From: a virus
IMG/VR virus record: IMGVR_UViG_3300037258_000235
Location: 1-31,073 of that record
DNA: 31,073 nt
Direction: 5' to 3' (one strand)
In this document: piece after piece, positions 873 through 28,538 of the stretch
Layout of the letters: each line of letters opens with the position of its first letter
Position numbering within the stretch: the first letter of the stretch is position 1
Program-made: the position numbers and the translations under genes
The notes under the pieces: generated by a model
The model's input: only the letters and a program-made list of their open reading frames with translations
What the model was told of the DNA's origin: nothing
Databases searched by the model: none

Positions 873-2093
873 TTAATGGCCTCTCGTCTTAACGACACCC
901 ATCCGCCACGCCAGCCCCCGCAGTTCCGTTACTCCCGCTTTCCTCTGCGCCTCATCCAGCATCACCGCCACCAGATCCCTGGTCATAGGGTGATTGTGCA
1001 CCTGGGCCGGGGAGAGACGCTCCGCATGCCGCAGCTCAGCGACCGCCTTCCCGCTCTTGCCCTCCATCACCAGCGCCCGCGCCTTCTCCATGGACAGCGC
1101 GGCACGCCTGTTATCCGAGGCCAGCGCGCGGGACTCCACCGCATCGGCGAACGTCAGCGCCTGCCCGGCGTTACCCGCCTCGGCTGCCAGCGATGCCCGC
1201 CACACACCGACATTCGCGGCACCGAACACCTCGAACGCCTCCGGCCGGTCGCCGAGCGGCGCCGCGATCCGGGCGGCTTCCTCCGCATGATCCGCCGCCC
1301 CGGAATGGTCCCCCACGACGGCGCACGCGAGCGCAGCCGACAACCGCAGCATCCCGTACACCTCCCGGGCGAACATGTCATCCCCCATCACATCCCCGAC
1401 TCTGTCCGCTACGGCCGGGGTGGCCATCAGCGCCCGCGGCCGGTTCGCTGAATTGCTCGCGTGGGCGCACCCGAACGCCGCCGCCCCCGCATGCACCGGG
1501 TCGCCGAGCAGCACGGCGGCCTGCCGTCCCCGGTCCGCGCTGATCCACGCCAGGTCAGTGCGCCCCCAGTGCTTCAGCATGATCGTCGCCGACGCGGCCG
1601 CAGCGATCAGCAGCCGCAGCGCCTCGTCCCGGTCGCAGCCCTCCGGCCCGGCGGCGTGCACCTGGAGCTCGCCGAGCAGCCCCGGCAGGTCCCGGTGCAT
1701 CACGTCGTAGTCGGCGCGTCTCAGCGCTTGGTCGACCGACTCGACGAGCTGGCCGAGCACGGGGAGCGGCCGGGCGGCGATGTCGGGGGGGTCGTCGATC
1801 GCGGCGTCTAGCAGGACCGTGCGGAACGGGGCGGCGGACCAGGTCCGGACTCCGGGGCGGATCTCCGGTGCGGGCTGGCCAAGGAGCGTGTCCGCGGATA
1901 CCTCGAGTACTTCGGCTATTGCGGCGATGTCCTGCCGTTTGTCCAGCGGGAGCCGGCCGTTTTCGATCATCGACAGCCACGCCTTGGACCGGCCGATTCG
2001 GCCGGCGAGGGTTTCCAGGGTTATCCCCCGGTACTTCCTGGCTTGCCGCACCCTGATCCCGGTGCTGACGCTGGTTTCCGTGTTATCGTTCAT
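873..2093 (-). CDS. XRE-family helix-turn-helix regulator with helical C-terminal domain
   Basis: A 406-residue cytoplasmic regulator. Residues of about 10-70 form a Cro/C1-type helix-turn-helix: IRVRQARKYRGITLETLAGR, then IGRSKAWLSMIENGRLPLD, then AIAEVLEVSADTLLG. The remaining 330 or so residues are Ala/Leu/Arg-rich helices resembling TPR arrays, as in many large actinobacterial XRE regulators. The open frame extends upstream to 2468, but that part is low-complexity Arg/Pro/Gly sequence, so I placed the start at ATG 2093 (MNDNTETS). No good ribosome site precedes it, so it may be leaderless. A TCTACGTT...GCAGAA element lies 58-75 bp upstream. Its location beside phage genes makes it a candidate repressor or host-responsive switch. 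Confidence 0.85.
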   Translation of the reverse strand: MNDNTETSVSTGIRVRQARKYRGITLETLAGRIGRSKAWLSMIENGRLPLDKRQDIAAIAEVLEVSADTLLGQPAPEIRPGVRTWSAAPFRTVLLDAAIDDPPDIAARPLPVLGQLVESVDQALRRADYDVMHRDLPGLLGELQVHAAGPEGCDRDEALRLLIAAAASATIMLKHWGRTDLAWISADRGRQAAVLLGDPVHAGAAAFGCAHASNSANRPRALMATPAVADRVGDVMGDDMFAREVYGMLRLSAALACAVVGDHSGAADHAEEAARIAAPLGDRPEAFEVFGAANVGVWRASLAAEAGNAGQALTFADAVESRALASDNRRAALSMEKARALVMEGKSGKAVAELRHAERLSPAQVHNHPMTRDLVAVMLDEAQRKAGVTELRGLAWRMGVVKTRGH

Positions 2094-2150: not shown

Positions 2151-2168
2151 GTCTACGTTTTTGCAGAA
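2151..2168. promoter_or_regulatory. Variant operator upstream of the XRE gene
   Basis: GTCTACGTTTTTGCAGAA has the same half-sites (TCTACGTT and GCAGAA) as the 17-bp palindrome found at the phage promoters, but the centre is 1 bp longer. It lies 58-75 bp upstream of the XRE start codon, where an autoregulatory site would be expected. I found no partner half-site at the 22-bp spacing. Confidence 0.4.
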
Positions 2169-2739: not shown

Positions 2740-2797
2740 TTGCATAGTTCTGCGTTTGCCCGATAGAGTTTCTACATAACGCAGAAGTTCTACGTAA
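2740..2797 (+). promoter_or_regulatory. Early promoter P1 with paired operators
   Basis: The -35-like TTGCAT (2740-2745) and -10-like TAGAGT (2764-2769) are 18 bp apart. The half-site TTCTGCGTT (2748-2756) lies between them. The palindrome TTCTACATAACGCAGAA (2770-2786) abuts the -10. A further half-site, TTCTACGTAA, is at 2788-2797. A repressor bound here would block RNA polymerase. The first early gene starts 10 bp downstream. The same geometry recurs at 5828, 26282 and 28492. Confidence 0.72.
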
Positions 2798-2806
2798 GGG
2801 GACCGG

Positions 2807-5109: not shown

Positions 5110-5451
5110 ATGCACACCACCAAGATCCTCACCCGGAAACTCGAAGACGCCTTGGCCGACCTGGCGAAGGACTGCCTGTACCCGGTCGAGGTCGCCGCCC
5201 GGCTGCTCGCCGCGGGCTGTACCGGGCAGCCGAATGAATGCTCCACGTGCCCTGTGGCCGTCTGGCTGGCCAAGCGCCTCGACCTGCCTTCCGACTTCTC
5301 CGTGGTGGTGGACGAGTCCGAAGCCACGCTCATCCCCGACCGTGACGAGTTCGCGCCCATGCCGGTAGCTGCGCTGCCAGGCGTGATCGGCGAGTTCATC
5401 CGCCAGTTCGACCGCCAGCCGGAGGACTACCCGGACCTGGTAGCACCATGA
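5110..5451 (+). CDS. Hypothetical early protein with Cys-rich helix
   Basis: A 113-residue protein starting at ATG 5110, just after the stop of the upstream gene. The frame is open further upstream, but that part is the antiparallel-like shadow of the neighbour. It has VEVAARLLAAGCTGQPNECS followed by TCPVAVWLAKRLDLP, a pattern seen in small actinophage proteins, with three Cys able to bind metal. No function is known. The stop overlaps the next ATG. Confidence 0.7.
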   Translation: MHTTKILTRKLEDALADLAKDCLYPVEVAARLLAAGCTGQPNECSTCPVAVWLAKRLDLPSDFSVVVDESEATLIPDRDEFAPMPVAALPGVIGEFIRQFDRQPEDYPDLVAP

Positions 5452-5678
5452 CCGTCGCTGAGCATTTCGAGGTGTACCCGACCTCCGGGTCCTGCTCGTT
5501 CGACTCCGGGCCGTTCGGTGAGCTGGGCCACGACGAGGCGATGACCGCGGCCGCGGAAGCCTCCGCCCATAAGGGTCCGGATCACTGCGTGGACCGGATC
5601 ACCACAGTGGACGGCCGACGTCGCCGGAACGCCATCGCAGAGTTCCGCGACGGCCAGCAGATCAAGGGCGCCCCGTGA
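5448..5678 (+). CDS. Small hypothetical early protein
   Basis: A 76-residue protein starting in an ATGA overlap and ending in a TGATG overlap. It has FEVYPTSGSCSFDSGPFGE and an acidic helix. No family is recognised. The tight coupling on both sides supports real expression. Confidence 0.65.
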   Translation: MTVAEHFEVYPTSGSCSFDSGPFGELGHDEAMTAAAEASAHKGPDHCVDRITTVDGRRRRNAIAEFRDGQQIKGAP

Positions 5679-5815
5679 TGCCGGGCCGGTCGCCCGCATT
5701 CAACGCGGGGGAGCGGGTCGGCTACGCGATCGGCCTGCTGATCTGCGCGGCCATGACCGGCCTGCTGGTCGCCGCGGCGTGGCTGACGATCCTGGCCGCG
5801 TTCCGGGTCCTGTAA
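5678..5815 (+). CDS. Single-pass small membrane protein
   Basis: A 45-residue protein with a short polar N terminus (MPGRSPAFNAGERVG) and a hydrophobic run of about 28 residues (YAIGLLICAAMTGLLVAAA, then WLTILAAF). It would sit in the cytoplasmic membrane. The start overlaps the previous stop as TGATG. It closes the first early transcript, 12 bp before promoter P2. Possible roles are superinfection exclusion, membrane sensing or a holin-like activity, but none is supported by a specific motif. Confidence 0.65.
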   Translation: MPGRSPAFNAGERVGYAIGLLICAAMTGLLVAAAWLTILAAFRVL

Positions 5816-5827
5816 CAGTCCTCCCGG

Positions 5828-5874
5828 TTGCGGAGTTCTGCATTACCGGGATACAATTTCTACATTACGCAGAC
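5828..5874 (+). promoter_or_regulatory. Early promoter P2 with paired operators
   Basis: TTGCGG (5828-5833) and TACAAT (5852-5857, one mismatch from TATAAT) are 18 bp apart. The half-site TTCTGCATT is at 5836-5844 and the palindrome TTCTACATTACGCAGAC at 5858-5874. Offsets are identical to P1: half-site at +8, -10 at +24, palindrome at +30 from the -35. Confidence 0.75.
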
Positions 5875-9007: not shown

Positions 9008-9220
9008 ATGGCAGACGTCACCCGATGCGAGCACCGCAACCGTGACCTCGTGCCCTGCACAGCCAAAGCCATATTCAGCGTCTCCTACGGCACACGCAGA
9101 CACGACACCCAGAAATCCTGCCGACGCCATCTCGCCGCCACCGTCGAAACGCTCGCACAAGGGACCAGCTCCCGCATCATCGCGACCCTCTTGCACGCAC
9201 CCATTTTCTACGTACTCTAG
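9008..9220 (+). CDS. Small hypothetical protein with Cys/His motif
   Basis: A 70-residue protein. CEHRN...C...CRRHLAA outlines a possible metal site, and ASSRIIATLL-like residues end the chain. The final codons lie within the promoter/operator region at 9191-9244, so transcription of the following genes begins inside this gene. Confidence 0.68.
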   Translation: MADVTRCEHRNRDLVPCTAKAIFSVSYGTRRHDTQKSCRRHLAATVETLAQGTSSRIIATLLHAPIFYVL

Positions 9221-9244
9221 AACTCCACTCCACACAACGCAGAA
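9191..9244 (+). promoter_or_regulatory. Putative promoter P3 with double operator
   Basis: TTGCAC (9191-9196) and TACTCT (9213-9218) are 16 bp apart. Two operator-like 17-mers follow the 22-bp spacing of the other sites: TTCTACGTACTCTAGAA at 9206-9222 (15 of 17 match the consensus) and CTCCACACAACGCAGAA at 9228-9244 (14 of 17). The promoter geometry differs from P1, P2, P4 and P5. It precedes the small-terminase-like gene. Confidence 0.55.
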
Positions 9245-13901: not shown

Positions 13902-16142
13902 GTGACCACCTACCGCCTCATGGACGGCATATCAGGCCGTCCCGGTACCGGGTCATCGGGGACACAGCCGCCCACCTCACCGACCGGGTACAACGGCCCC
14001 TACCTCGCCGGAACCGTGTTCGAAGTCACGGCCGGCGGCCTGTGGTTCGAGGGCTACTACTTCTGGTGCCCCCCCGGAGGCGATACCGGCCCCCAGAAGT
14101 TCGCGTTGTGGGGCCTGACCGGCGCCAGCGCGGGCGCGGTGATCTCCGGGTCTGTCGTCACCTCGGGCACGCTCACAGCGGGCGCGTTCAACTTCGTCCC
14201 GGTAGCCTCCCCGTTCCAGCTGGCGATAGGCACCGAATACCTGCCCGCGACCGGGTACACCGCCAGTGCGGGATTCCCGCTGACGGCCAACCAGTTCGGG
14301 TCCGGTGATCCGTACAGCGGCGGGATCGTCAACGGCCCGCTGACCGCATACTCCGATGGTGACGGCGGCGGATCGGCCCCCGCGACCGCGTTTACACCAC
14401 AGGGCGTCTTCTCCACTGCCGGGTCGGACCCGTCAGTGGACATGCCGGCCAGCGGGTTCGACTCCGGGAACTTCTGGGTCGACGTCCAGGTCTCCGACAC
14501 CGCACCGTCCGGCTACACCGGCTCTTACAGGATCTGGCCGAACAAGCTTGACGTCGCCGCGACCGGCACCGGCATCGACTCGGCCGACAACTACATCCTC
14601 GGCACCGAATTCAGCCTGTCCGGGTCGTGCGCGCTGAACAACATCTGGTTCTATTCGCCAAGCGGCGCTAGCCAGCTTCCCACCCAATGCGCGATCTGGG
14701 ATGTCTCCACGCAGACGATGGTGTCGGGGACGCTGAAGACATCGCCGAGCTGGTCGGGCGCAGCCGGGTCGGGATGGGTGTCGGCCTCATACAGCGGCGT
14801 CACGCTGCCAGCGGGCGACTACAAGACGAGCGTCTGGAACGGCGCCGGCACCCCGTCCGGGTGGAACGAATACACCCTCGACTACTTCACGACTGGTGCT
14901 GGCGGTTCGGGTATCACCACCGGGCCGATCAGCGTGCCTGACGCCAGCAGTGCCACGTCGCCCGGCCAGTCGACCTACCAGACCAGCTCGACGACGTTCC
15001 TGTACCCCGACCAGTATGTGGCGACCGAAGGCCAGGCGTACTGGGTCGACGTGGAGGTCACCCCGCAAACCGCCGCGGCAGGCGCAGCGACGATAAGCGG
15101 CCAAGGGCAGCTTAGCCAGCCTGACAGCACCGACGCGGCCGGAGAGACAGTTGGCGGCCACGGATCACTCGGCCAGCCGGACAGCGCAGACGCCGCCGGG
15201 AGCACCCTGACCGGTCAGGGTAACGTCGGCCAGCCTGATAGCGCTGACAGCGCTGCGGGCACGATGGCTGGCCAGGGTTCGGTCGGCCAGCCGGACAGCA
15301 CGCTCAGCGTCATCGCCACGCTGGCCGGGCAAGGGAGCCTCGCCGACGCGGCCACCGACAGCGCGCCCGACACGATCCAAGGCGCCGGAACGCTCGCACC
15401 CGCAGCCACGATCGAAGCGCCCGCGACGCTGAGCGGCGCTAGCAGCCTGTCCGACACGGACGGCACAGGATCAGACGGCGGCATAGCCGGAGCGAGCAGC
15501 CTTGGGCAGCCAGCCTCGGCCGACGACGCCACCGGAAGCCTCGCCGGGCAAGGATCGGTCGGACCCCTCGACACCACCGACCAGGCACCAGCGACTCTCA
15601 CCGGCCAAAGCAGCCTGTCCGACACCGCGACGATCGAAGCACCCGACACGATCACCGGCCAAGGCCAGGTCAACGCGTCCACATCGCCGCAAGGTGATTC
15701 CGGGCTGACCGGCAGCAGCACGTTCGGGGCGCCCGACAGCACGCTTGGCGTGGGGGAGACGATCACAGGCGCCGGCCAGCTCGCCACAGCCTCGGACGTC
15801 GAGCCGCCTGCGACCATGGCCGGGCAAGCGCAGCTGGGCACGAGCTCGGCGGACGAACCGCCCGCGACGATGGCTGGCCAAGGGCAGCTGACCGGGACGG
15901 GCGGCGTCCCGTCCGGTCAAGGCGCCACAATGACCGGCGGAGGCCAGTTCGGCCAGCCGGACACCACCGAAGACGCCGGCGAGGTCCTCGGCGGCCACGG
16001 AAGCATCACCGCGGCCGCCACGGTCGTCACACCCGGCGGACTACCGCCGCTCCCCGACGGCATCACGGTCGGCGCGCCGTACAGCCGGTGGTCTGCTGGC
16101 GAACCTTATGGCCGTTACTCTGCAGCAGCACCCCACGGATAG
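13902..16142 (+). CDS. Large repeat fibre or adhesin-like structural protein
   Basis: A 746-residue protein from GTG 13902. It has two tandem DUF4082-like beta domains (about residues 25-200 and 225-390). The second shows FSLSGSCALNNIWFYSPSGA, then LPAGDYKTSVWN. Residues 396-709 are about 17 repeats of 18-20 residues with consensus ATLxGQGSLGQPDSADAA. The C terminus ends in PYSRWSAGEPYGRYSAAAPH. Gly/Ser/Thr-rich repeats of this kind form extended stalks. I infer a virion fibre or head/tail appendage that binds the host surface. It has no signal peptide, which argues against a host adhesin. Confidence 0.7.
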   Translation: MTTYRLMDGISGRPGTGSSGTQPPTSPTGYNGPYLAGTVFEVTAGGLWFEGYYFWCPPGGDTGPQKFALWGLTGASAGAVISGSVVTSGTLTAGAFNFVPVASPFQLAIGTEYLPATGYTASAGFPLTANQFGSGDPYSGGIVNGPLTAYSDGDGGGSAPATAFTPQGVFSTAGSDPSVDMPASGFDSGNFWVDVQVSDTAPSGYTGSYRIWPNKLDVAATGTGIDSADNYILGTEFSLSGSCALNNIWFYSPSGASQLPTQCAIWDVSTQTMVSGTLKTSPSWSGAAGSGWVSASYSGVTLPAGDYKTSVWNGAGTPSGWNEYTLDYFTTGAGGSGITTGPISVPDASSATSPGQSTYQTSSTTFLYPDQYVATEGQAYWVDVEVTPQTAAAGAATISGQGQLSQPDSTDAAGETVGGHGSLGQPDSADAAGSTLTGQGNVGQPDSADSAAGTMAGQGSVGQPDSTLSVIATLAGQGSLADAATDSAPDTIQGAGTLAPAATIEAPATLSGASSLSDTDGTGSDGGIAGASSLGQPASADDATGSLAGQGSVGPLDTTDQAPATLTGQSSLSDTATIEAPDTITGQGQVNASTSPQGDSGLTGSSTFGAPDSTLGVGETITGAGQLATASDVEPPATMAGQAQLGTSSADEPPATMAGQGQLTGTGGVPSGQGATMTGGGQFGQPDTTEDAGEVLGGHGSITAAATVVTPGGLPPLPDGITVGAPYSRWSAGEPYGRYSAAAPHG
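15087..16029 (+). repeat. About 17 in-frame tandem repeats in the fibre gene
   Basis: Degenerate 54-60 bp units encode ATxxGQGxLgqpdsxdaa. Examples are GQGQLSQPDSTDAAG, GHGSLGQPDSADAAG and GQGNVGQPDSADSAA. The first four units are the most alike, which suggests recent expansion at the 5' end of the array. Copy number is likely to vary among related phages. Confidence 0.75.
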
Positions 16143-18277: not shown

Positions 18278-18315
18278 TCAACGTCAACCAATAGCGACCA
18301 ACAGCCACCCACGCT

Positions 18316-18352
18316 GTCCGCTGCCACGCAAGGAGAGAACGTGGCAGCGGAC
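18316..18352 (+). promoter_or_regulatory. Perfect 13-bp hairpin at the portal start region
   Basis: GTCCGCTGCCACG (18316-18328) and CGTGGCAGCGGAC (18340-18352) are exactly complementary, with an 11-nt loop that carries AGGAGAG. A GTG at 18341 lies in the right arm. The structure could hide or present a ribosome site, or terminate the terminase transcript. Confidence 0.65.
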
Positions 18353-18369
18353 AATCGGGAGGCGCCGTC

Positions 18370-24594: not shown

Positions 24595-24945
24595 ATGAGC
24601 ACCACCCAGTCCAACCACGCGGCCACGACAGGGCCAGCGGCGGCCGCGGCGCTCGCCGCGCTGACCGGCCTCACCCCGGGCCGGTACGCGATCGACGTGT
24701 ACGCCTACATCTCCGGCACCGCGACCGCGGCCGAGGCCGACAACGTGGAGCTGCTCGTCGACAGTGTTGTGACCGACATCGTGGCCGTCGCGCCGGTCGC
24801 CAACGGGCCCGCGGTGAAGCAGTCGTTCGAGCACGTCACCACTACCGGTGCGATCGCCCTCCAAGCGGTCGGCAACGGAGGCGGCTCAGCGGTGTATCAC
24901 ACGCTCCTCGTCGTCGCCCTGCTACCCCACTACGACGCCGGCTGA
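24595..24945 (+). CDS. Hypothetical structural-region protein
   Basis: A 116-residue Ala/Thr/Val-rich protein with LTPGRYAIDVYAYISGTATA, then VELLVDSVVTDIVAVAPVAN and GAIALQAVGNGGGSAVYHTL. It is beta-rich, like small decoration or fibre domains. The start ATG has AGGAGGA upstream. No family can be named. Confidence 0.66.
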   Translation: MSTTQSNHAATTGPAAAAALAALTGLTPGRYAIDVYAYISGTATAAEADNVELLVDSVVTDIVAVAPVANGPAVKQSFEHVTTTGAIALQAVGNGGGSAVYHTLLVVALLPHYDAG

Positions 24946-24969
24946 CCGGCAGCAAGAGAGGAATCCCCC

Positions 24970-25584
24970 ATGACCTACACCAACCCGTCTCCCGTCGCGG
25001 AGGCATACGACGGCGACGGTGGCCTGCCCGCCGACGTCGAGCACGGCCACGGGATGCCGCCGTTCTTCGCTCCGACCGGCCTCACCGGCATGACCACGGC
25101 CAGCCGATACGTCGGCGCGGTGAACGGGTCGGCGCCAGCGAGCGGCACGTTCCAGCTTGGCGACTGGGGAATCAACACAGCCGGGGCGATCATCATCTGC
25201 ACCGTCGCTGGCACTCCCGGCACCTGGGTTGCGCCGGCCGGCCCAGCAGTGTTTTCCGCGTTGACCGCGGTGGCGCTGACGGACGCGGCGACCATCCTCG
25301 TCAACGCTGCTCTCGGAAACCTGTTCCGCGTCATCCTGGGCGGCAACAGGACCCTCGGAGCGCCGACGAACCCGACCGACGGGCAGACGATCGACTTCGA
25401 GATCACGCAGGACGGCACCGGCTCGCGGACGCTGGCCTACGCCTCGGCGTACGAGTTCTCGACCACCTTGGCGTCACCCACCCTGTCGACCGCGGCGGGG
25501 AAGGTGGACCTGCTGTCGTTCCGGTACAGCAGCGTCGCTACCAAGTGGCGCTGCAAGCTGATCAACCTCGGGTTCACCAGCTGA
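24970..25584 (+). CDS. Fibre-like structural protein
   Basis: A 204-residue protein. The N terminus is polar and Asp/Gly-rich. RYVGAVNGSAPASGTFQLGD and a TPGTW turn follow. The C-terminal part has LTDAATILVNAALGNLFRVI, then LGGNRTLGAPTNPTDGQTID and LSFRYSSVATKWRC. This C-terminal domain is a common beta-structured module of phage tail or head fibres. A virion surface role is likely, and host binding is inference. It starts after AGAGAGGAA. Confidence 0.68.
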   Translation: MTYTNPSPVAEAYDGDGGLPADVEHGHGMPPFFAPTGLTGMTTASRYVGAVNGSAPASGTFQLGDWGINTAGAIIICTVAGTPGTWVAPAGPAVFSALTAVALTDAATILVNAALGNLFRVILGGNRTLGAPTNPTDGQTIDFEITQDGTGSRTLAYASAYEFSTTLASPTLSTAAGKVDLLSFRYSSVATKWRCKLINLGFTS

Positions 25585-25650
25585 CACTGCCATCCCTGCG
25601 GGAAGGCTCGGAGGTCGTCTAGACAACGACCCCCATACGGGAGGGCAGAA

Positions 25651-26199
25651 ATGCTCAGAAAGATCATCACGGCCGCGCTGGTCGCCGCCCTGGGTATCGT
25701 CCTGGCGCTGGCCGGGGTGAAGCCCGCGGCCGCGTCGACTCCGGGTTGCACCGCGGGCGCGTTCGCCGGGTACTGCGGGACGCAGACCGACCAGGAGACG
25801 CCGGCGATGTCGTGGGATGTGTACCGGCAGGCCGTCAAGGTCAACCAGCCGCTCATCGCCTACCCGAACTCCGACTCCGACCCGGCGGTCGACTTCGCGG
25901 CACTCGCACCGGGTACCGGGAACGTGGAGGGCGCGAAGATGTTCATCTACACGCCCCGCGGCGCGATCACGGACCTGTGCATCACCGAACCGTTCCAGGG
26001 CGCTCAGCTGCTGCTGCGGGTCTGCAACGGGTCGGCGTGGCAGGTGTTCACCGCGAAACAGGTCAGCGGCAACCTGTACGAGTGGGTGAATCAGGCCACC
26101 GGCGATGTCGTATCCGCAGACGGGATCCGGTCCCCGCTGACCGGTGTTCCGCCGCCGAGCACTCCGGGGCCGGCCGTCGAGTGGACGCTCGCGGCATGA
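25651..26199 (+). CDS. Secreted protein with signal peptide
   Basis: A 182-residue protein. Residues 1-28 form a Sec signal peptide: basic MLRK, hydrophobic IITAALVAALGIVLALAGV, and a likely cleavage after AAA in KPAAASTPG. The mature part has CTAGAFAGYCGTQTDQETP, then SWDVYRQAVKVNQPLIAYPN and SAWQVFTAKQ, with about four Cys that could pair. The repeated aromatic motifs suggest a lectin-like or beta-trefoil fold, but this is weak. It lies among head and tail genes but would be exported from the cell. Possible roles are surface modification or superinfection exclusion. GGGAGGG precedes the ATG. Confidence 0.72.
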   Translation: MLRKIITAALVAALGIVLALAGVKPAAASTPGCTAGAFAGYCGTQTDQETPAMSWDVYRQAVKVNQPLIAYPNSDSDPAVDFAALAPGTGNVEGAKMFIYTPRGAITDLCITEPFQGAQLLLRVCNGSAWQVFTAKQVSGNLYEWVNQATGDVVSADGIRSPLTGVPPPSTPGPAVEWTLAA

Positions 26200-26219
26200 C
26201 CGCATAGCAAGCGACTGGG

Positions 26220-26253
26220 AGCGCCCGGCAGGCTACGGCCAGCCGGGCGCTTT
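26220..26253 (+). terminator. Rho-independent terminator
   Basis: AGCGCCCGGC (26220-26229) pairs with GCCGGGCGCT (26242-26251) over a 12-nt loop, followed by TT. It directly follows the secreted-protein gene and precedes promoter P4. Confidence 0.8.
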
Positions 26254-26281
26254 CCGCATGCGGGGGGCCTGCGTGTTCTGG

Positions 26282-26328
26282 TTGCGGGTTTCTGCGATAT
26301 GCCGATATGGTTTCTGCGAAACGCAGAC
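26282..26328 (+). promoter_or_regulatory. Moron promoter P4 with paired operators
   Basis: TTGCGG (26282-26287), half-site TTCTGCGAT (26290-26298), TATGGT (26306-26311) and palindrome TTCTGCGAAACGCAGAC (26312-26328). All offsets equal those of P1 and P2. It is located between a terminator and the 68-residue gene. Confidence 0.75.
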
Positions 26329-26349
26329 ATTGAGCAGGAAGGGACCGGG

Positions 26350-26556
26350 ATGATCAGCGGCCAGCCGGACTTCGAGCATCCCGACATCCTCGACCTGGCC
26401 GGCCTGCGTGCCGTCATCGGCCCCGAACCGGATGGCACGGTCGGTGCCGACCTTGACCACCCTGGCAGCTTCGTGACCATGACTGTGGCCGAGGCGCGTC
26501 AGCTCATCGCCGCGCTGACCAAGGCCGCCGACGCCGCCGAGCACATCCGCCCCTGA
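26350..26556 (+). CDS. Small hypothetical moron protein
   Basis: A 68-residue soluble protein starting at ATG 26350 with AGGAAGGGA upstream. The open frame extends 17 codons further, but those lie within the promoter. It has DILDLAGLRAVIGPEPDGTV and a helical end (VAEARQLIAALTKAADAAEH). No family is recognised. It has its own regulated promoter and is bounded on both sides by strong terminators, so it is an independent transcription unit inside the late region. That arrangement is typical of moron genes, which often act on the host during lysogeny. The exact role cannot be read from the sequence. Confidence 0.75.
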   Translation: MISGQPDFEHPDILDLAGLRAVIGPEPDGTVGADLDHPGSFVTMTVAEARQLIAALTKAADAAEHIRP

Positions 26557-26561
26557 ACCCG

Positions 26562-26611
26562 GAAGGCCCCGCGAAGCTGTGAGCCCGAAGCTCTGGCCTC
26601 GCGGGGCCTTC
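26562..26611 (+). terminator. Strong 13-bp terminator hairpin
   Basis: GAAGGCCCCGCGA (26562-26574) and TCGCGGGGCCTTC (26599-26611) are exactly complementary over a 24-nt loop, whose AGCT ends can extend the stem. It follows the moron stop codon by 5 nt. Confidence 0.8.
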
Positions 26612-26677: not shown

Positions 26678-27154
26678 GTGGCCGTGGCCGAGGTGCGGAT
26701 CGAGTGGGACGAGGCGGCAGTGACCGCCTGGGTCCGCAACCCCACCGCAGCCCCCGCCCGCGCCCTGGACCGCGCAGCGTCCAAGGTGCTGCAGAACATG
26801 AAGCGGCTTTGCCCCGTCTCCAAGGTGCAGCCCGTCTACGCCACCAAGGGCAAGACCGTCAAAGGCGGCAGCCGGTACGCCGGTGACTTCCCCCTCCGGC
26901 CGTCCGGGTATCTGCGCAGGTCCTGCCGCAAGCAGCTTGAGGCCGACGGGTCGCAGATCATCGGGCCGACCGCCCCCTACGGCCTGTACGTGAACAACGG
27001 GACGCCGGCGCACCCGATCGACTCGCTCGGCGACTACCCGCTGCGGAACCGGGCCACTGGCCAGGTGTTCGGCCGGCACGTCAACCACCCGGGGACGAAG
27101 GCACAGCCGTTCATCGTCGAGTCCCTCGCCGTCCTGTCGGGGCTGCAGCTATGA
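26678..27154 (+). CDS. Head-tail closure protein (HK97 gp10-like)
   Basis: A 158-residue protein starting at GTG 26678, or alternatively GTG 26684. It has VRNPTAAPARALDRAASKVL near the N terminus. PYGLYVNNGTPAHPI and the ending VNHPGTKAQPFIVESLAVLS are the hallmarks of HK97 gp10-like minor tail or connector proteins. It helps join head and tail. The stop overlaps the next start (ATGA). The ribosome site is weak. Confidence 0.82.
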   Translation: MAVAEVRIEWDEAAVTAWVRNPTAAPARALDRAASKVLQNMKRLCPVSKVQPVYATKGKTVKGGSRYAGDFPLRPSGYLRRSCRKQLEADGSQIIGPTAPYGLYVNNGTPAHPIDSLGDYPLRNRATGQVFGRHVNHPGTKAQPFIVESLAVLSGLQL

Positions 27155-28496: not shown

Positions 28497-28538
28497 ATAG
28501 TCTGCGTAGGACAGAATAATGTTCTACGTACTGTGGAA
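28492..28538 (+). promoter_or_regulatory. Promoter P5 with paired operators
   Basis: Weak -35 TGTAGA (28492-28497), half-site GTCTGCGTA (28500-28508), -10 AATAAT (28515-28520; strict offset gives ATAATG) and operator TTCTACGTACTGTGGAA (28522-28538). The 22-bp spacing is kept. It stands between the tail tube and chaperone genes. Confidence 0.62.

Follow-up and report, generated by a model that had tools for sequence, protein, structure and literature searches.

A 68-codon open reading frame lies in the late head-tail region of a viral genome, downstream of what appears to be an early-type promoter. This arrangement raises the question of how the gene is controlled and at which stage of the viral cycle it is expressed. 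The window, meaning the whole stretch of DNA analyzed, is a 31,073-base IMG/VR virus record. Its gene order is actinophage-like, with regulators at the left followed by small early genes and then by terminase, portal, capsid and tail genes on the + strand, and we read its source as a temperate virus of soil actinobacteria. The reading that we favor, and consider likely, is that the locus is a moron-like single-gene cassette within the late operon, driven by an early-type promoter that belongs to the phage's own repressor regulon.

The cassette and the operator regulon

The neighbors of the cassette are a 182-aa signal-peptide-like ORF (25651-26199) on its 5' side and a tail-completion/neck gene (26678-27154; phrog_5) on its 3' side. 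A preliminary description had proposed a complete autonomous unit at this position, and its parts were confirmed at the level of sequence: in positions 26217-26611, a strong hairpin is followed by a promoter that bears two palindromic operators (together 26282-26327), by a conserved 68-codon gene (26350-26556) and by a further strong hairpin.

26217..26253, + strand: hairpin 1, a candidate terminator or RNA-processing stem without a U-tract (-34.1 kcal/mol, z -4.4)
26282..26311, + strand: promoter, with -35 TTGCGG (26282-26287), an 18-nt spacer and -10 TATGGT (26306-26311), in the same register as at 2749 and 5837
26291..26305, + strand: operator O1, TCTGCGATATGCCGA, within the promoter spacer
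26313..26327, + strand: operator O2, TCTGCGAAACGCAGA, with perfect palindromic arms, covering the expected transcription start
26350..26556, + strand: the 68-aa gene, with Shine-Dalgarno sequence AGGAAGGGA and an acidic product (pI 4.45)
26562..26611, + strand: hairpin 2, a candidate terminator without a U-tract (-39.5 kcal/mol, z -4.8)

A start codon further upstream (ATG 26299, giving 85 aa) was rejected: it falls within the promoter, and a 2-nt indel disrupts its reading frame in L002, a 4.5-kb phage fragment that carries the cassette at the same place. Identity to L002 is 100% over hairpin 1 (37/37), 98% over the promoter and operators, 89% over the 68-aa gene (range 88-91%) and 92% over hairpin 2, and it falls to 64% in the stretch just 3'. 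The A26574-T26599 pair of hairpin 2 is replaced by a compensatory C-G pair in L002. Of the 22 substitutions in the ORF, 13 lie in codons whose residue is retained and nine in codons whose residue differs; with dN/dS at about 0.23 (p 7e-4), the gene is under purifying selection. Three further relatives (L004, L005 and L006) contain neither a match to the 68-aa gene nor an operator array scoring at least 20; in these, homologues of the flanking genes 24054 and 26678 follow one another with about 40-560 nt between matches. L003 stops short of the cassette position.

Several other features of the window were recorded. The segment immediately 5' of the cassette (24595-26199) is a hypervariable block, in which two ORFs are absent from L002 and the 182-aa ORF lacks its middle in L002 and diverges over its 3' part in L003. 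A long near-perfect inverted repeat with an SD-like AAGGAG in its loop occupies the terL-portal gap (18306-18365) and possibly controls portal translation. Many short GQGxLxxPDxxDxA-type repeats make up the C-terminal half of a 746-aa ORF (13902-16142).

The operator pair of the cassette consists of TCTRCRNNNYGYAGA twice, 22 bp apart. The window contains five copies of this pair, all of them on the + strand and just 5' of an ORF. The arrays, at 2749, 5837, 9207, 26291 and 28501, each score at least 21/24, whereas none of 300 first-order Markov shuffles scored above 20. The four outside the cassette, together with a single variant site, are as follows:

2152..2167, - strand: single operator variant with a 4-nt spacer (12/12), located some 60 bp 5' of the regulator gene described below
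2749..2798, + strand: early-operon promoter array, with O1 at 2749, O2 at 2771 and a third half-site at 2793, spaced by 22 bp throughout
5837..5873, + strand: operator array and promoter, 5' of ORF 5895; a syntenic operator is present in the phage record G255 (L043)
9207..9243, + strand: operator array 5' of ORF 9287 (phrog_3678); an operator precedes the homologous gene in G255 (L047)
28501..28537, + strand: operator array in the late operon, before the ORF (28541/28550) that follows the tail tube gene

In the arrays at 2749, 5837 and 26291, the -35, the 18-nt spacer, the -10 and the two operators have identical relative positions, with -35 hexamers TTGCAT, TTGCGG and TTGCGG and -10 hexamers TAGAGT, TACAAT and TATGGT, respectively; the canonical promoter register is not present at arrays 9207 and 28501. 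The "regulon geometry" earlier ascribed to the cassette promoter is therefore real, in the form of double 15-bp operators with a 22-bp period that recur at five sites. A promoter-pattern scan of the sequence collection matched only L002, and a scan with the double-palindrome pattern gave no match. The placement of O1 in the spacer and of O2 over the start point would fit repression by exclusion. In Streptomyces phage phiC31, palindromic repressor sites (conserved inverted repeats) are likewise found at several intergenic places.

The flanking hairpins

Both edges of the cassette are marked by exceptionally stable folds: hairpin 1 ranks first and hairpin 2 third when every 60-nt fold of either strand of the window is compared. 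The preliminary description had called them terminators. The strong, stable hairpins were verified at both edges, but the tails 3' of them (UUUCCGC and UUCACAU) contain no U-tract and neither was called by a consensus terminator scan, so termination at these stems is only inferred. On the favored reading, hairpin 2 would limit transcription into the tail genes and hairpin 1 would limit read-in. The tail genes, from 26678 onward, lie 3' of the cassette in the same direction, and late transcripts must therefore cross both hairpins. Leakiness, antitermination or a role of the stems as processing sites may account for this passage. For these reasons the earlier statement that the unit is isolated from late transcription was too strong; the cassette is insulated at best, rather than walled off.

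The last of these options may be taken further, with the hairpins acting not as terminators at all but as RNase-processing or mRNA-stabilizing stems that part the cassette RNA from a polycistronic late message. The great length and stability of the stems, the missing U-tracts and the need for late transcription to traverse them on the way to 26678 and beyond all agree with such a role. Terminators poor in U-tract are known in actinobacteria, however, and stems that bracket an autonomous unit on either side fit the classic moron layout. We regard processing as possible but doubtful.

The candidate regulator and control of the cassette

The window encodes two regulators, a short GntR protein (397-711) and the following:

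873..2093, - strand: HTH (XRE/HTH_31) plus TPR-like regulator (Pfam HTH_31; phrog_5823, E 4e-51)

The HTH-TPR protein is the probable repressor of the regulon and binder of its operators, and the perfect-arm site at 2152..2167 is a putative autoregulatory site of its gene. A search for viral contigs with this protein found only L010 (66%), part of the 111-kb record G255, a phage record otherwise unlike the window. G255 contains four near-perfect TTCTRCRNNNYGYAGAA palindromes compared with 0 for reversed-pattern controls; one is 5' of the gene homologous to window gene 9287, a second lies in a neighborhood homologous to 5448-5815, and L010 has a weaker 11/12 site at -73 of its homologous regulator gene. 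The structural relative G003 has neither the regulator nor the operators. Because G255 has both and G003 lacks both, the operators track the HTH-TPR regulator. Chromosomal host homologues of the regulator (36-60% identity) have no operator upstream.

The GntR gene is also common to the window and G255 (62% identity), and co-occurrence alone therefore does not decide against GntR as the binder. The operators might be bound by GntR, or by a regulator whose gene is not in the window, and the binder might be an activator; TACGTA is found both in some operators and repeated before gntR. The region upstream of gntR nevertheless has other repeats and no TTCTRCR palindrome, the autoregulatory palindrome precedes the HTH-TPR gene in both phages, and operators placed over spacer and start site fit repression. 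This assignment is unlikely, and the HTH-TPR protein is preferred, short of proof, because the repeats upstream of gntR differ. One of these, GCTACGTAGCGCTACGTAC at 411-429 before the GntR gene, is probably GntR's own operator.

With the HTH-TPR protein as repressor, we infer the following sequence of binding, repression and timing. Dimers would occupy O1, between the -35 and -10 elements, and, two helical turns away, O2 at the transcription start, and would thereby exclude RNA polymerase. The cassette gene would be silent in the prophage state, and upon induction, or infection of a naive cell, would fire along with the early operon.

The operators could instead serve mainly to silence the structural genes. 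On this account, the arrays at 26291 and 28501 and the hairpins would hold down leaky transcription of the prophage's structural operon, much like stoperators, and the ORF would be a passenger. Two of the five arrays are indeed inside the late operon, and every array is oriented with transcription, as are the stoperators of mycobacteriophage L5 (PMC3029335, PMC6550527). L5 and Bxb1 further share with the window several one-orientation repressor sites genome-wide, including late-region sites and one before the repressor gene (PMC6550527, PMC3029335). Their sites, however, are asymmetric, 13 bp long, bound non-cooperatively and present in 20-34 copies (PMC6550527, PMC3029335), whereas those of the window are 15-bp palindromes, paired at a distance of 22 bp and grouped in five arrays, and the probable regulator is an HTH-TPR protein. 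An L5-type stoperator system, with an asymmetric 13-bp site, a gp71-type repressor and 20-30 copies, was accordingly rejected. A silencing role also leaves aside the full early-type promoter in the cassette array and an ORF that has a good Shine-Dalgarno sequence and is under purifying selection; the sites of the window are palindromic pairs rather than asymmetric 13-mers, and only five as against 20-30. We judge it improbable.

The AlphaFold model of the HTH-TPR protein (pLDDT 86) has an N-terminal HTH and an all-helical C-terminal TPR-like domain, and its best PDB fold matches are ComR (E 7.5e-4), Rgg2, PrgX and phi3T Rap, all at low TM-scores. As modeled, the protein thus combines the N-terminal HTH and C-terminal TPR fold of the RRNPP regulators (ComR/Rgg/PrgX/Rap). 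That an RRNPP-like, peptide-sensing lysogeny regulator governs the regulon, cassette included, is very unlikely; if true, a cell-density or peptide signal would release a late-region cargo gene at induction.

The 68-residue protein and comparison with known morons

The 68-aa protein has one known relative, that in L002. No wider family was found in 50,697 phage records, NCBIfam or PADLOC, nor any relative in 250 genomes from the order of Nonomuraea, a set without a positive control. Its model, a beta-meander with a C-terminal helix, is of low confidence (pLDDT 64), and fold searches with it gave no significant match. The only family matches, DUF6907 and phrog_8413, were below threshold. Membership in DUF6907 was rejected at 17.6 bits compared with a curated cut-off of 26, in an alignment covering the C-terminal 39 residues only, and an Actinomadura match (L051, E 0.001) was discarded as chance, as it overlaps a response-regulator gene in another frame.

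An anti-defence or early host-directed function is possible. Our preferred guess, offered tentatively, is that this small acidic product acts early on the host, in takeover or counter-defence. G255 carries the regulator and operators and no relative of the 68-aa protein, which speaks against the protein being central to the repressor circuit and makes the earlier proposal that it controls the repressor itself less likely. It is very unlikely that the protein counteracts or modulates the HTH-TPR regulator as an anti-repressor and so provides positive feedback at induction: its gene shares the regulon of the early genes and TPR regulators often bind small polypeptides, but G255 has regulator and operators without any relative of the protein.

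Morons are defined as ORFs with a flanking promoter and terminator that are present in one genome and missing from a relative (PMC3029335). Between the same neighbors, the cassette is present in the window and L002 and absent from L004-L006. It has a promoter of its own as judged from its sequence (TTGCGG-18-TATGGT), and in the place of a terminator a strong, conserved hairpin that shows a compensatory change and lacks a U-tract. Like the HK97/HK022 and lambda lom/bor morons, it is a single ORF with its own promoter and a downstream hairpin, set between conserved virion genes and missing in relatives; it differs from them in a promoter that bears the operators of the phage's own early regulon, for which silence in lysogeny is predicted. 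Lysogens often express accessory (moron) loci at high levels (PMC7067206), and the cassette operators predict the opposite of such repressor-independent expression. P22 pid is likewise a late-region moron; it encodes a small orphan protein of 86 aa and shows no effect in lysogens (PMC3573128). The pid effect differs in that it was linked to the phage carrier state and was missing from strictly lytic growth too, and the available part of the published account describes no early-type double operator (PMC3573128). The cassette joins a moron layout to early repressor-type control.

Because its own early-type promoter appears to be repressor-controlled, the cassette gene is probably on at the awakening of the virus and not during dormancy. 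Morons are usually seen as serving the dormant prophage; a promoter that nearly copies the repressor-controlled early ones would instead mean cargo of the lytic switch. The operator pair at 22 bp would offer a sequence rule by which induction-timed cargo, together with the repressor regulon, may be found in uncultured actinophages.
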